This document shows, in pieces, positions 3,637 through 9,122 of a DNA stretch of 23,438 bases. Source of the DNA: Oscillospiraceae bacterium (GTDB lineage Bacteria > Bacillota > Clostridia > Oscillospirales > Oscillospiraceae); NCBI GenBank assembly GCA_017458025.1, contig JAFTGG010000096.1, positions 1 through 23,438 on the forward strand, read 5' to 3'. Each line of letters starts with the position of its first letter. The stretch's first letter is position 1. The notes beneath the pieces are model-generated. The model did no database searches, was not told where the DNA came from, and saw only the letters and a list, made by a program, of their open reading frames with translations. The position numbers were made by a program, and so were the translations under genes.

Positions 3637-4194
3637 ATGAATAAGGACGATTACAAGGAATATTCCGACAGAATGAAGAAGAGCATCGACTCCGTTGCCG
3701 CGGACTTTGCCGCCGTGCGCGCGGGCCGCGCCAACGCCGCCGTGCTCGACCGCATCAACGTCGACTACTACGGCACGCCGACCCCGATCCATCAGATCGC
3801 GTCCATCGCGTCGCCCGACCCGCGTCAGTTGGTCATCACGCCGTGGGACGCGCAGGCGGTCAAGCTCATCGAGCGCGCGATCCAGGAGTCCGATCTCGGC
3901 ATCAACCCGCAGAACGACGGCAAGTCGATCCGCCTTTCGTTCCCGCAGCTGACCGAGGAGCGCCGCAAGGAGCTGGTCAAGCAGATCCGCAAGTACGCGG
4001 AGAACGGCAAGGTCGCGATCCGCAATATCCGCCGCGACGCCATCGACACTTTTAAAAAGCAGCAGAAAGCGTCCGAGATCACAGAGGACGACTACAAGAT
4101 CGCCGAGAAGGACCTTCAGAAGCTCACCGACGACATGTGCAAGGAGCTCGACGAGCTGCTTGAGAAGAAGGAAAAGGAACTGATGGCCGTCTGA
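3637..4194 (+). CDS. frr: Ribosome recycling factor
   Basis: This 185-residue protein has the full length typical of RRF. With EF-G it splits post-termination ribosomes and releases mRNA and tRNA. Recognisable family stretches are AAVRAGRANAAVLDRINVDYYG, TPIHQIASIASPDPRQLVITPWD, and the charged C-terminal helix ending KKEKELMAV. The ATG at 3637 is preceded by AAGGAGG. The TGA stop overlaps the uppS ATG by one base (TGATG), so uppS translation is probably coupled. pyrH, often the upstream neighbour of frr, is not here; instead the gene has its own promoter after metA. Confidence 0.97.
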   Translation: MNKDDYKEYSDRMKKSIDSVAADFAAVRAGRANAAVLDRINVDYYGTPTPIHQIASIASPDPRQLVITPWDAQAVKLIERAIQESDLGINPQNDGKSIRLSFPQLTEERRKELVKQIRKYAENGKVAIRNIRRDAIDTFKKQQKASEITEDDYKIAEKDLQKLTDDMCKELDELLEKKEKELMAV

Positions 4195-4946
4195 TGGGCG
4201 TCTTTACAGGAAAAGGATCGGCGGGGCAGGTAGGGGATTCCAACCTGCCTCGTCATGTTGCCGTCATCATGGACGGCAACGGGCGCTGGGCCCAGAAGCG
4301 CGGTCTGCCGCGCACCGCGGGGCATAAGGCGGGCGCGGAAAACTTCCGCGCCATCGCGACATACTGCAAGGAGCTGGGGCTGGACTACCTGACGGTCTAC
4401 GCGTTCTCGACCGAGAATTGGAGGCGTCCGCGGGGCGAGGTCGACGCCATCATGGGCCTGCTCGACCAATATCTGCACGAGAGCATCGAGACCATGTCGC
4501 GGGATAATATCCGCCTGCGTTTTTTGGGCGACGTCAGCGTGCTGTCGCCCAAGCTGCGGGCGCTCATCGACGAGACCGACGAGATCACGCGGCACATCGA
4601 GGGCTTTCAGGCGAACATCTGCCTCAACTACGGCGGGCGCGACGAAATCGTGCGCGCCGCGCGGCGGTTCGCGCAAGAGTGTGCCGCGGGGGAGAAGTCG
4701 CCCGAGGATTTGACCGAAGCGAGCTTTCCCGACTATCTCTGGTCGGCGGGCCTGCCCGATCCGGAGCTGCTGATCCGTCCGGGCGGGGAGGTGCGCGTGA
4801 GCAACTTCCTGCTCTGGCAGTGCGCCTACAGCGAGATCTACGTCACCGATACGCTCTGGCCGGACTTCGGCAAGGAGGAGCTCGACAAAGCGCTCGCGTG
4901 GTATCAGACGCGCGACCGGCGCTTCGGCGGGCTGAGTACGAAATAA
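4194..4946 (+). CDS. uppS: Isoprenyl transferase, probably undecaprenyl-diphosphate synthase
   Basis: This 250-residue cis-prenyltransferase condenses IPP onto farnesyl-PP to make undecaprenyl-PP, the lipid carrier for peptidoglycan. The catalytic motif VIMDGNGRWAQKR is at 25-37 with Asp27. The C-terminal signature RPGGEVRVSNFLLWQ, then YSEIYVTDTLWPDF, holds IPP- and Mg-binding residues. Most members have RTSGE or RTGGE where this one has RPGGE, a variant I believe is common in related Clostridia. The gene starts within the frr stop codon and is followed after 26 nt by cdsA. Its substrate supply is made by the MEP-pathway genes downstream in the same operon. Confidence 0.95.
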   Translation: MGVFTGKGSAGQVGDSNLPRHVAVIMDGNGRWAQKRGLPRTAGHKAGAENFRAIATYCKELGLDYLTVYAFSTENWRRPRGEVDAIMGLLDQYLHESIETMSRDNIRLRFLGDVSVLSPKLRALIDETDEITRHIEGFQANICLNYGGRDEIVRAARRFAQECAAGEKSPEDLTEASFPDYLWSAGLPDPELLIRPGGEVRVSNFLLWQCAYSEIYVTDTLWPDFGKEELDKALAWYQTRDRRFGGLSTK

Positions 4947-4972: not shown

Positions 4973-5842
4973 ATGTTACAACGCTGGCTGGTGGCCATCA
5001 TCGGGCTGCCGCTGCTGCTCTTGGTGCTGCTGGCGTGCCCACCGTGGGCGACGATGCTGCTGGTGTGCGCCATATCGGGCGTCGCGGCGTATGAGCTGCT
5101 GCATGTCGCGGGGAAGAACGTGCCGAAGGTCGTGCTTTGGGGCGTCATTCTCTCCGCCGCGGCGCAATGCTGGCTCAAATACGCGGAGACGCAGACCGCG
5201 CTGGCGGGGACGCACCAGAGCTATTCTCTGGTTTCCGGCGTCCGCTGGGCGACCGTAATGCTCCTGTTTTTCGCCGCCGTCGTCACCTACGGCACGGAGA
5301 GGGCGATGCCGTTCTCGACCGTCGCCGCCGGCGTCGTCGGGGGGATCGTGTTCCCCGCGCTGTACGCTTACCTCATTTTGCTGCGCGTGGATTACCCGCG
5401 CGCGGACTTGGAGCAAGCCTACGGGCAAATCTACATCCTCGCGCCGTTCTTCATCGCGTTCGCCGGGGATTCGCTGGCGATGTATTTCGGCATGTGGTTC
5501 GGCAAGAAGAAGCTGACGCCCGTCAGTCCCAAAAAGACCTGGGCGGGCTTCTGGGGCGGCGTCCTCGGTTCCGTGCTCGGGATGCTGCTGCTGCGCCTGA
5601 TCGCCGGAAAATGGCTCGGATATCATTATCCTTTCACCTGGCTTACGTTTGCGCTCACCGGCGCGGTCGCCAACGTGTTCGGACAGCTTGGCGACCTGTC
5701 CATGTCGCTCATCAAGCGGGAGGCGGGCGTCAAGGATTACAGCCATTTGTTTTTGACGCACGGCGGGATGCTGGATCGCTTTGATTCGACCATGTTCATC
5801 GCGCCGGTGGTCTACTTCTTTCATTGGATTACATTGGTATGA
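4973..5842 (+). CDS. cdsA: Phosphatidate cytidylyltransferase (CDP-diacylglycerol synthase)
   Basis: This 289-residue polytopic membrane protein converts phosphatidic acid and CTP to CDP-diacylglycerol. Several hydrophobic helices are visible from residue 5 onward, and the family core GDSLAMYFGMWFGKKKLTPVSPKKTWAG lies in the middle. The C-terminal signature reads GDLSMSLIKREAGVKD, then YSHLFLTHGGMLDRFDS. The usual form has PGHGG before the Asp-Arg pair; here residues 261-262 are Leu-Thr instead of Pro-Gly. The remaining metal-binding Asp and Lys residues are kept. The ATG has AAGGGA 10 nt upstream. The stop overlaps the dxr start (ATGA), so the genes are coupled. The assignment is secure; whether the changed loop affects activity is unknown. 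Confidence 0.93.
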   Translation: MLQRWLVAIIGLPLLLLVLLACPPWATMLLVCAISGVAAYELLHVAGKNVPKVVLWGVILSAAAQCWLKYAETQTALAGTHQSYSLVSGVRWATVMLLFFAAVVTYGTERAMPFSTVAAGVVGGIVFPALYAYLILLRVDYPRADLEQAYGQIYILAPFFIAFAGDSLAMYFGMWFGKKKLTPVSPKKTWAGFWGGVLGSVLGMLLLRLIAGKWLGYHYPFTWLTFALTGAVANVFGQLGDLSMSLIKREAGVKDYSHLFLTHGGMLDRFDSTMFIAPVVYFFHWITLV

Positions 5843-6990
5843 CAAGGACTATTGCTTTACTTGGCTCGACCGGCTCCATCGGCCGCCAGACGCTCGAAGT
5901 GGCGCGGGAATTGGGCCTCAAGGTCGCGGCGCTGACCGCCAATTCCAGCGTCGACCTGATCGAAGCGCAGGCGCGGGAGTTTTGCCCGCGTCTCGCCGCG
6001 CTTTACGACGAAGCGGCGGCGAACGAGCTGCGAAACCGCCTCGCGGATACGGATATTGAGGTCTTGAGCGGTATGGAGGGACTTCTCGCCGCCGCGACCG
6101 TCGCCGAGGCGGACACGGTTGTGACCGCCGTGGTGGGCATGATCGGGCTTTGCCCGACGCTCGCCGCCATCGAACAGAAAAAGCGCATCGCGCTCGCGAA
6201 CAAGGAGACGCTGGTCTGCGCGGGCGAGCTGGTGATGGACGCCGCCGACAAGCACGGCGCGGAGATCGTGCCGGTGGACAGCGAGCACAGCGCCATCTTC
6301 CAATGCGTGCAGGGCTGCCGCGACCGCGGCGAGATCAAGCGTCTGATCCTGACCTGCTCCGGCGGGCCGTTCTACGGGCTTTCGTACGACGAGCTGACGC
6401 ACAAGACGCGCGCGGACGCGCTTAAGCACCCGAATTGGACGATGGGCGCGAAGATCACCGTGGACAGCGCGACGCTGATGAACAAGGGCCTCGAAATCAT
6501 CGAGGCGATGCGTCTCTACCGCTTGCCGCTCGCGCAGGTCGACGCGGTCATTCACCGTCAGAGTATCGTCCACTCGCTCGTCGAGTTCCGCGACGGCGCG
6601 CTGCTGGCGCAGCTCGGCACGCCGGACATGAAGCTGCCGATCCGCTACGCGATGACGTATCCCTATCGAGGGATATCTCACGCGTAGCCGCTCGATTTGC
6701 TGAGCTGCCCGCCGCTGACGTACGCCGAGCCGGACGAGGAGGCGTTCCGCTGCCTGAAGCTCGCGAAGCGGTGCGCGCAGACGGGCGACACGTCCTGCGC
6801 GATCATGAACGGTGCGAACGAAGTCGCGGTGCATGCTTTTTTGCAAGCAGAGATCGGCTTTCATGATATCCCGTCGCTGGTCGAAACGGCGCTTGCCGAG
6901 GTTTCGCAGGTATCAAACCCGGCGCTTTCGGATATTCTGGAAGCGGATCGGCTTGCACGCGAGAGCGTGAAGCGTCATATTAAAAAGTAG
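5839..6990 (+). pseudogene. dxr: 1-deoxy-D-xylulose 5-phosphate reductoisomerase interrupted by an in-frame amber codon
   Basis: Dxr converts DXP to MEP with NADPH, the first committed step of the MEP isoprenoid pathway. The start is ATG at 5839, overlapping the cdsA stop; upstream in-frame ATG at 5824 is inside cdsA. The N-terminal part is intact: GSTGSIG (NADPH binding, residues 9-15), LANKETLVCAGELVMDAA, PVDSEHSAIFQ (metal ligands Asp, Glu) and VDSATLMNKGLEIIEA. Codon 283 (6685-6687) is TAG. The same frame then continues with PLDLLSCPPLTYAEPDEEAF, CAIMNGANEVAVHAFL and a normal C-terminus to TAG at 6988-6990. Read through, the protein would be 383 residues, a normal Dxr length. The distance between the TYP motif and PLDLL equals that in normal homologues, so only one codon is lost. 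As written, the product is 282 residues and lacks the C-terminal helical domain. Possible explanations are a sequencing error, recent mutation, suppression, or a second copy elsewhere. Confidence 0.85.
6658..6675. repeat. Perfect 7-bp hairpin just before the dxr amber codon
   Basis: TATCCCT (6658-6664) and AGGGATA (6669-6675) are perfect inverted arms around the loop ATCG. The amber codon begins 10 nt downstream. The patch uses codons rare in this window (CGA, ATA, TCT) and is the only place in dxr where family residues are lost. Confidence 0.7.
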
Positions 6991-7003: not shown

Positions 7004-8068
7004 ATGGTCTATATTCTCATTGCCATTTTGATCTTCGGCGTGCTGATCGGGCTGCATGAGTTCGGGCATTTCGCCGTCGCGAAAGCGTGCGGCGTGCGCG
7101 TGAACGAGTTTTCCATCGGCATGGGGCCGCTGAACTTCCAAAAAACCAAGGGGGAGACGGACTATTCGCTGCGTCTGCTGCCCATCGGCGGCTACTGCGC
7201 AATGGAGGGCGAGGACGAGGACTCCGACGACCCGCGCGCGCTGAACGTCCAGCCGTTCTGGAAGCAGTTCCTCATTTTCGTCGCGGGCGCGGCGATGAAC
7301 TTCCTCACCGGCTTCGCGATTCTGCTGTGCCTTTACGCGGGCGCGGCGGGCTTCTATACAACGAACATCGTCGAACTCAATCCGGCGTTTCCGAATCAAG
7401 GCGAAGACGGCGTCATGGTCGGCGACGAGATCTACAAGATCAACGGAGAGCGCATCTACCTGCGCGGCGACGTTTCGACGATCCTGGAGTACAAGTCCCG
7501 CGGCGATACGATGGAGATGGTCGTCAAGCGAGACGGGCAGAAGCTGACGCGCACGCTTACCATGCAGACCTACACCGACGAAAACGGGCAGGAGTACCGC
7601 GCCTACGGCTTTACGTTCGGCAGTATCGTCGAGGCGACGCCGATGCTGAAGCTCAAATACAGTTGGTACAACGCCATTGACTATGTGCGCCTCGTGCGGT
7701 TGAGCCTGCAAATGCTCATCACCGGCGCGGCGGGCGTCAACGACCTGAGCGGCCCCGTCGGTATCGTATCGACGATCTCGGAGATGGGGCAGGAGACCGA
7801 AGCGGAGGCGGGCTTTGCCGCGGCGCTCGAAAACGTGCTGTTTTTCGGCGCGCTGATCGCGGTGAACCTCGCGGTCATGAATCTGCTCCCGCTGCCCGCG
7901 CTTGACGGCGGCAAGATATTGATCCTCGTACTCGACGCGATCGGCATGCTGCTGTTCAAGCGCAGGATTCCGGAGAAGTTCGAGACTGTTGTCAACGCCG
8001 CGGGATTTGTGGCGCTGATGGGTCTGATGCTGTTTGTTACGTTCAACGACGTGGTTAAATTGTTATGA
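7004..8068 (+). CDS. rseP: RIP metalloprotease, site-2 protease family
   Basis: This 354-residue integral membrane zinc protease cleaves membrane proteins such as anti-sigma factors and remnant signal peptides within the bilayer. The first helix carries the zinc motif HEFGH (residues 18-22). The third zinc ligand is Asp301 in NLLPLPALDGGK. A PDZ-like domain occupies roughly residues 120-200 (DGVMVGDEIYKINGE, then LRGDVSTILEYKSRG). Four membrane helices are expected, the last at the C-terminus. The start has AGGAG overlapping the dxr stop codon, 13 nt after dxr. Its position between dxr and ispG/polC matches the Firmicute operon in which the gene is called rasP. The substrate in this organism cannot be inferred from the window. 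Confidence 0.94.
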   Translation: MVYILIAILIFGVLIGLHEFGHFAVAKACGVRVNEFSIGMGPLNFQKTKGETDYSLRLLPIGGYCAMEGEDEDSDDPRALNVQPFWKQFLIFVAGAAMNFLTGFAILLCLYAGAAGFYTTNIVELNPAFPNQGEDGVMVGDEIYKINGERIYLRGDVSTILEYKSRGDTMEMVVKRDGQKLTRTLTMQTYTDENGQEYRAYGFTFGSIVEATPMLKLKYSWYNAIDYVRLVRLSLQMLITGAAGVNDLSGPVGIVSTISEMGQETEAEAGFAAALENVLFFGALIAVNLAVMNLLPLPALDGGKILILVLDAIGMLLFKRRIPEKFETVVNAAGFVALMGLMLFVTFNDVVKLL

Positions 8069-8084: not shown

Positions 8085-9122
8085 ATGACAAAACGTATTT
8101 TTGCCGGACAGGTCGCCATTGGCGGCGGCGCTCCGGTCACAATACAGTCGATGTGCAACACGCGTACCGAGGACGCGGAGGCGACCATCGCCCAGATCCA
8201 CGCTCTCGAGGACGCGGGCTGCGAGATCATTCGCGTCACCGTACCGAACATGGACGCGGCGCGGGCGCTGAGTATCATCAGGGACGCGATCCGTATCCCG
8301 CTCGTCGCGGATATCCATTTCGACTACCGTCTCGCGGTCGAGGCGGCGGCGCGCGGCGCGGACGCCATTCGCATCAATCCCGGCAACATCGGCGGCGAGG
8401 ACAACGTCCGCGCGGTGGTAGACGCGTGCCGCGCCCGCCGGCTGCCGATCCGGATCGGCGTCAACGGCGGGTCGCTTGAAAAGGAGCTGCTCGCGAAGTA
8501 CGGCCGCGTGACGCCCGAGGCGCTGGTCGAAAGCGCGATGACGCATATCAGGCTGCTCGAAAAGTACGATTTCACCGACGTCTGCGTCAGCGTCAAGTCG
8601 AGCGACGTGCCGCTCAACATGGCGGCGTACCGTCTGCTGCACGAGACCGTCGACTATCCGCTGCATCTCGGCGTGACCGAGGCGGGTACGCCGTCGATGG
8701 GGCTCATCAAGTCCGCCATCGGTATCGGGGGGCTGCTGTGCGAGGGCATCGGCGATACGATCCGCGTGTCGCTGACCGCCGATCCGGTGGAGGAGGTTTA
8801 CGCCGCGAAGCGCATTTTGCAGGCGTGCGGGCTGCGCAAGACCGGCGTCAACCTTGTGTCTTGCCCGACCTGCGGGCGTACGGCCTACGACATGATCCCG
8901 CTGGTCGAGGAGCTCGAAAAGCGGCTCGCGGGCTGCGATAAGAACATCACGGTCGCAGTCATGGGCTGCGTCGTGAACGGCCCGGGCGAGGCGAGCGCCG
9001 CCGACCTCGGCGTCGCAGGCGGCAAGGGCGAGGGGCTCGTTTTCCGCCGCGGCGCGGTGCTGTACAAGGTGCCGGAGGAAAAGCTTATTGACGCGCTGAT
9101 GGACGAGATTGAAAAACTGTAG
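8085..9122 (+). CDS. ispG: (E)-4-hydroxy-3-methylbut-2-enyl-diphosphate synthase
   Basis: IspG (GcpE) reduces MEcPP to HMBPP, the penultimate MEP-pathway step, using a 4Fe-4S cluster. The 345-residue protein is of the short, TIM-barrel plus cluster-domain bacterial type. Cluster ligands are Cys260 and Cys263 in SCPTCGRTAYD, Cys295 in MGCVVNGPGE, and Glu302. The N-terminus TIQSMCNTRTED and the SVKSSDVPLNM segment are family hallmarks. The start at 8085 follows AAAGG by 11 nt; a longer frame reaching back into rseP is rejected. It is intact, in contrast to dxr in the same operon, which argues that the MEP pathway is still used. Confidence 0.96.
   Translation: MTKRIFAGQVAIGGGAPVTIQSMCNTRTEDAEATIAQIHALEDAGCEIIRVTVPNMDAARALSIIRDAIRIPLVADIHFDYRLAVEAAARGADAIRINPGNIGGEDNVRAVVDACRARRLPIRIGVNGGSLEKELLAKYGRVTPEALVESAMTHIRLLEKYDFTDVCVSVKSSDVPLNMAAYRLLHETVDYPLHLGVTEAGTPSMGLIKSAIGIGGLLCEGIGDTIRVSLTADPVEEVYAAKRILQACGLRKTGVNLVSCPTCGRTAYDMIPLVEELEKRLAGCDKNITVAVMGCVVNGPGEASAADLGVAGGKGEGLVFRRGAVLYKVPEEKLIDALMDEIEKL

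Follow-up and report, generated by a model that had tools for sequence, protein, structure and literature searches.

Why does a bacterium that carries an otherwise normal isoprenoid operon have a stop codon in the middle of one of its genes? The gene is dxr, it is probably essential, and the in-frame TAG within it could in principle reflect an error, a recent loss, suppression of the stop or a change in how the enzyme is built. To answer this question, we analysed a stretch of 23,438 nucleotides (hereafter the window), which is contig C218 of an Oscillospiraceae assembly in its entirety. The assembly comprises 2,011,155 bases in 282 contigs and is 89.3% complete and 0.6% contaminated. With 282 contigs and 89% completeness, the source genome looks like a MAG, and its closest relatives in a GTDB scan were Oscillospiraceae or Clostridia MAGs together with one Oscillibacter strain, some of them from rumen or colon.

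An amber codon private to one dxr

A preliminary description of the window had reported an amber codon inside dxr, and translation from the gene's ATG confirmed it, placing the TAG at codon 283 (Table 1). The gene thus departs from the single uninterrupted reading frame expected of Dxr (IspC). The same description held that the frame continues past the amber for 101 codons. The frame does continue, although for 100 sense codons, the 101st being the terminal stop. It was also correct that the number of codons between the TYP and PLDLL motifs is unchanged, as alignments to 17 relatives of the genus contained no gap there. Coding signal was strong on both sides of the TAG: over 35 codons before and 35 after it, the frame beat its best competitor by log2 margins of 22.0 and 23.0. 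When the protein was read through with an X at the stop, Pfam matches to PF02670, PF08436 and PF13288 were all present and in order. The 282-residue product, by comparison, keeps PF02670 and PF08436 and covers only 20 of the 115 positions of PF13288 (DXPR_C), scoring 24.4 bits where the cut-off is 27, so nearly the entire third domain would be lost.

Table 1. Coordinates of the features discussed, all within the window.
Feature	Position	Strand	Basis or remark
uppS	4194..4946	+	Uninterrupted ORF, aligned to relatives, NCBIfam
cdsA-like	4973..5842	+	Uninterrupted; NCBIfam match under its cut-off
dxr, 1-deoxy-D-xylulose-5-phosphate reductoisomerase	5839..6990	+	383 codons read through one internal TAG
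Hairpin, 5' arm	6644..6664	+	8 + 3 + 8 paired bases
Hairpin, 3' arm	6669..6688	+	Contains the TAG; T6685 pairs with A6647
Codon 281, His (CAC)	6679..6681	+	Private; His in 0/120 listed homologues; Pro in P0001
Internal TAG, codon 283	6685..6687	+	Translation from ATG 5839; Glu (GAG) in 9/17 genus relatives
Codon 295, Tyr (TAC)	6721..6723	+	Private; Phe in 120/120 listed homologues
dxr terminal stop, also TAG	6988..6990	+	Translation
rseP-like protease	7004..8068	+	Uninterrupted ORF, aligned to relatives, NCBIfam
ispG, MEP pathway	8088..9122	+	Uninterrupted; terminal stop TAG

The neighbouring genes gave no sign of similar damage. Both uppS and ispG, which had been described as intact, are uninterrupted ORFs that aligned to relatives over nearly their full length and passed their NCBIfam cut-offs; within the window, metA, frr, uppS, rseP, ispG and polC all scored above the curated cut-off. 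Across ten genes we counted 17 private departures at 2,441 invariant sites, with residue 295 of Dxr being one of them. Because such departures are few, contig C218 looks clean overall and is not error-ridden as a whole. As a separate observation, cdsA is 95% identical to its counterpart in one relative (G016) and at most 67% identical to those of 11 other relatives compared, a pattern from which the neighbouring genes differ and which suggests local gene exchange.

Comparison with close relatives, a check that the preliminary description had proposed, revealed that the TAG is private to this genome. None of the 17 other genus genomes has an internal stop in dxr, which in the window is 79–87% identical to theirs; 16 of the 17 have one dxr match each, and the 17th has two pieces at contig ends. 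We then extended the comparison to 150 genomes of the family. A dxr match was found in 146 of them, the source genome included, a few of the matches being partial and some of these few falling short of codon 283, and among these 146 the internal stop occurred in the source genome only. Stop flags raised in three further genomes (G120, G159 and G133) were rejected: the best alignments, which end at query residue 378–380, contain no stop inside them, and we attribute the flags to the stop that ends the gene. Searching with the 282-residue product yielded no Dxr protein cut at codon 283 among the 120 matches listed of 4,374. The single match of 282 residues, the database Dxr P0157, finishes in unrelated letters (LSLIHI) that look like translated transposase adapter, and matches of 288, 305 and 319 residues continue past the site.

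These comparisons bear on the idea that Dxr works here as a split protein, which the preliminary description had listed among its explanations. In such a scheme the 282-residue product would cooperate with a C-terminal piece made by reinitiation, or low-level natural readthrough would suffice. The nearest start after the stop, a TTG at 6697, does open a frame of 97 amino acids, and the stop lies beyond the first two Pfam domains. By eye, no Shine-Dalgarno-like stretch was seen ahead of this TTG, the nearest start being the one inspected; no twin truncated at this point was among the 120 matches listed of 4,374; and the site is unsplit in all 17 genus relatives. In addition, because the alignment to solved structures of Dxr extends through its C-terminal part, a functional 282-residue Dxr is unlikely. 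With neither a ribosome-binding site seen nor a truncated twin listed, split function has little support, and we consider it, together with sufficient natural readthrough, extremely improbable.

Clustered changes and a hairpin at the stop

We found that the nearest protein, P0001 (ENA; 383 amino acids), is 93% identical to the Dxr of the window. The differences are unevenly spread: 22 of the 139 N-terminal residues differ, against only 3 of the 244 in residues 140–383. These three are His for Pro at residue 281, the stop for Glu at 283 and Tyr for Phe at 295. If three differences were placed at random in 244 codons, the chance of their lying within 15 codons of one another would be 0.0086. In a set of 120 homologues listed of 7,978 that scored above threshold, 115 have one of the four most frequent residues, E, T, P or Q, at codon 283. 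The minimal change at each of codons 281, 283 and 295 is a transversion, as judged from the relatives' codons, P0001 being known as protein only. Because the three private changes cluster within 15 codons, they point to a local disturbance near the stop rather than to general decay of the gene. Neither the hairpin around the stop nor the private changes on its two sides (codons 281 and 295) were part of the preliminary description. Separately, dxr is a mosaic with respect to P0001, being divergent at 5839–6255 and nearly identical at 6256–6990; this suggests recombination between strains, or that either the window or the source of P0001 is a chimeric contig.

Another reading is that dxr has been truly and recently lost in this lineage, with the loss tolerated through an unseen isoprenoid source or through a dxr copy that the incomplete assembly lacks. 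The stop was assembled in the middle of a contig and not at a contig end, residues His281 and Tyr295 also look unconstrained, and 4 of the 150 family genomes have no dxr match, all of which would be compatible with such a loss. Against it, the second dxr copy envisaged earlier was not found: only one dxr was present in the source genome (89% complete), and none was duplicated in the 17 relatives. The suggested check for mevalonate genes likewise returned no mevalonate kinase in the same 89%-complete genome at E 0.001. Moreover, ispG and uppS are uninterrupted, and residues 140–383 are otherwise unchanged from P0001, which argues against general decay. We therefore regard a real loss of dxr as unlikely.

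We also examined how the sequence around the stop folds. Folding of positions 6640–6780 produced a stem from 6644 to 6688 that holds the TAG, with a z score of -2.87 and with 1 of 200 shuffles folding equally well. The hairpin contains 19 pairs in 45 bases, 18 of them Watson–Crick. At least 18 Watson–Crick pairs were found in 4 of the 23,394 windows of this size along the contig, counting the hairpin itself and those overlapping it, and 4 of 3,000 random synonymous recodings attained 18. By fold energy, the hairpin stands out less, ranking only 44 of 23,394 windows and ninth among non-overlapping hairpins. The same place in twelve relatives has 8–15 Watson–Crick pairs.

Within this hairpin, the first base of codon 283 faces A6647 in the outer stem of eight pairs. 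Nine of the 17 relatives have GAG at codon 283, and the pair opposite A6647 is mismatched in all nine; in six of them it is the sole mismatch of the eight pairs when G–U is allowed. The remaining eight relatives have other codons and poorer pairing. In the window, the T at the first base of the codon allows all eight outer-stem pairs to form. The private base A6680 in codon 281 also pairs, with T6653, adding a further pair to the stem, and codon 295 lies outside the hairpin.

Such a pattern is known from other organisms. According to the available text of PMC7202029, mutations associated with quasi-palindromes in Escherichia coli involve a polymerase that copies the nascent arm and leaves the repeat more perfect, and homogenisation of arms in coding genes is described for yeast in the available text of PMC8604942. 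Both hallmarks can be recognised here: the repeat was imperfect before the change, if the GAG relatives stand in for the ancestor, and each of the two changed bases raises the complementarity of the arms (T6685–A6647 and A6680–T6653). We estimate the chance that two derived letters both pair at about 1 in 9. The idea that the whole hairpin is an artefact was dropped, its Gly-Ile core (codons 278–279) being common to P0001. Three other in-gene stops sampled in this genome (described below) lie in weak folds of 11–12 pairs, so template switching is no general cause of the sampled stops.

Amber suppression and the use of stop codons

An amber codon could also be tolerated if a suppressor tRNA decoded it, and the preliminary description had accordingly proposed a search for a tRNA with a CUA anticodon. 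We read 30 tRNA-family matches in the source genome with ARAGORN and did find a tRNA-Tyr body with the anticodon CTA, at the end of contig C186. If amber suppression were real, this tRNA would read the TAG as Tyr and full-length Dxr would be made. The gene occupies the final 80 bases of the contig (L130:1500-1579), which stops before the tRNA's 3' end; a complete tRNA gene with a CUA anticodon was not found among the matches read, and the remainder may be unassembled. Compared with seven genus relatives whose tRNA-Tyr shares its acceptor type, the 80 bases contain three private transversions, all of them outside the stems as read. The exact CTA pattern occurred in 1 of 150 family genomes, namely the source genome, in a search that would miss variants. 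A tRNA-Thr on the same contig, away from the end, is identical to that of five of the seven relatives compared.

A second tRNA-Tyr lies near the end of contig C111 (L131:1498-1582) and has the anticodon GTA. Its 5' end is unlike that of relatives, and its acceptor pairing, as read, has two mismatches and two G–U pairs of seven. We compared the order of genes around both tRNAs with eight relatives' loci. In G006 the order is C111 genes, tRNA-Tyr, tRNA-Thr, C186 genes, and this collinear order was found in that relative only. In four others (G001, G009, G010 and G011) these gene groups likewise flank a tRNA-Thr/tRNA-Tyr pair, which is inverted relative to G006, whereas G004 and G016 have only the C186 genes near the tRNA locus, and G002 has neither group. 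Each of the seven relatives that share this acceptor type has a single tRNA-Tyr match. Two matches per genome were found in G002, G003, G004 and G013, all with the other acceptor type, and one match each of G004 and G013 adjoins C186-type genes; 5 of the 18 genus genomes have no tRNA-Tyr match.

Because of the gene order in G006 and the copy number in the seven relatives, these data suggest that the CTA copy on C186 and the GTA copy on C111 are two halves of one locus, although a second locus is possible. ARAGORN reading of the fetched loci of the source genome yielded no tRNA for Glu, Phe, Cys, Trp, Ile or Asn; since six kinds were not seen, tRNA genes are absent from the assembly and a further tRNA-Tyr is possible. 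The CUA tRNA looks like an end-of-contig artefact, and we set a suppressor tRNA aside mainly because of where it lies on the contig, its private changes, the number of copies in relatives and the arrangement of genes in G006. As read from the contigs, the conflicting tRNA-Tyr copies at contig ends are at least one other flaw in conserved sequence of this assembly.

We also asked how this genome uses its stop codons. An RF1-like match on contig C195 runs to the contig end and scored 385.8 bits, below the curated cut-off of 423.25 because the gene is cut by the contig end. Of the ends of 268 sampled coding ORFs, 32 are TAG, which makes it the least used terminator, and dxr and ispG are among the window genes that end in it. 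Reassignment of TAG, for which release factor 1 would be missing and TAG would not serve as a terminator, is therefore not what we see. The earlier suggestion of pylTSBCD found no backing either: TIGR03912, which covers the N-terminal domain of PylS only, had no match at E 0.001 in the source genome (89% complete), and a control in Methanosarcina acetivorans was positive.

To sample in-gene stops more widely, we used a codon-usage scan that was trained on the window genes and based on a six-frame margin, applied it to a 410-kb sample and read 35 candidates by eye. Most of the candidates resemble ordinary gene-to-gene junctions. The in-gene stops were TAG in two cases, TAA in one and TGA in one, and ordinary pseudogenes could add TAA and TGA. 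TAG accounts for 801 of the 1,233 nonsense changes reachable by transversion in window genes, so its excess needs no special cause. The other TAG is in frame on the minus strand of contig C237 (L196:11057), 200 bases from the contig end, in a gene that we take to be DUF255/thioredoxin-domain-like; of the 18 genomes of the genus, just one more has this gene, with Arg (CGT) opposite the TAG. The in-gene TAA lies in a coiled-coil-like protein on contig C9 (L168:18001). The in-gene TGA lies in an uncharacterised protein on C186 (L164:473), where one relative, at 43% identity, has Cys.

Amber suppression thus has several points in its favour. A contig ends in a tRNA-Tyr-like gene with a CTA anticodon whose three differences spare the stems, a second in-gene TAG beside a CUA tRNA is the pattern expected of suppression, TAG is the rarest terminal stop, and genomes with two tRNA-Tyr exist in the genus, albeit with the other acceptor type. 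These points are opposed by the incomplete, contig-terminal state of the tRNA with its private transversions, by a gene order in G006 that fits C186 and C111 as halves of one gene with the C111 copy reading GTA, by the single tRNA-Tyr of all same-type relatives, and by the fact that Tyr codons would go unread if the CUA copy were the sole tRNA-Tyr. Furthermore, the exact CTA pattern is unique to the source genome among 150, an RF1-like gene is present, the sampled in-gene stops are not TAG only and TAG dominates the reachable nonsense changes, and codon 283 is mainly E, T, P or Q in the listed homologues. We judge real suppression of this TAG by the C186 tRNA to be very unlikely. The broader proposal, in which hairpin template switching created the amber and an essential MEP gene came to depend on a natural amber-suppressor tRNA-Tyr, is in our view likewise very unlikely.

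Origin of the stop and comparison with known systems

Together, these data make it probable that the TAG is a sequence-level accident, a hairpin-templated lesion in a thin consensus of an otherwise normal dxr, and not recoding. Among the explanations in the preliminary description, error or accident is thus favoured, and a second copy, suppression and a split protein are not. We propose that the quasi-palindrome already present in relatives served as the substrate, and that a polymerase, acting either in vivo or while the library was being made, probably folded back and copied the opposite arm. The mismatched base of the outer stem would thereby have become complementary, turning a Glu codon into TAG. 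If this happened at a thin spot of a fragmented metagenome assembly, one or a few such molecules could have set the consensus, and the living population presumably produces full-length Dxr. We favour a thin spot because a lethal change can dominate a consensus only if very few molecules were sampled. As illustration only, and not as values for this genome, contig coverages in relatives include 3.95, 3.04 and 1.75, others being much higher. From these considerations we infer a template switch, low coverage and a change that is not fixed in living cells. The flawed tRNA-Tyr copies elsewhere in the assembly fit this account. Several observations weigh against it: the stop sits far from either contig end, codon 295 is not part of the hairpin, the joint pairing of both derived letters has an appreciable chance by itself, the energy rank of the hairpin is modest, the other sampled in-gene stops have weak folds, and private departures along the contig are few.

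If it were true, a wild bacterium with an essential gene dependent on amber suppression would be remarkable, and it would imply a chromosomal suppressor economy in a lineage of Clostridia. The case is also a warning: an in-frame amber can turn up in the same assembly as a suppressor tRNA that matches it, each of them probably a local sequence flaw. Analysis of synteny and of hairpins can expose such flaws without reads.

The gene resembles other Dxr (IspC) genes of the MEP pathway in its three Pfam domains and in the isoprenoid and envelope genes that adjoin it, and it differs from them in its internal TAG and in the private residues 281 and 295. The supF type is a natural amber-suppressor tRNA-Tyr, and the assembly shares with it a CUA anticodon on a tRNA-Tyr body; unlike supF, the C186 tRNA is incomplete at a contig end and conflicts with a GTA copy of seemingly the same locus. 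The recoding of TAG in gut phages (code 15), as presented in the available text of PMC9523058, likewise features in-frame TAG, and the relatives of this genome include gut MAGs. Unlike the phages of that text, the stop described here lies in a bacterial housekeeping operon of a genome that has TAG terminal stops, an RF1-like gene and, in the sample, in-gene stops that are not only TAG. The last comparison is with quasi-palindrome mutation in E. coli, for which the available text of PMC7202029 treats a natural thyA hotspot as well as lacZ reporters. Whereas our case is a single assembled sequence without a parent–offspring pair, is perhaps an in vitro copy and includes a change at codon 295 outside the repeat, it is like the E. 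coli cases in that an imperfect repeat has been perfected at a mismatch and the changes are clustered.
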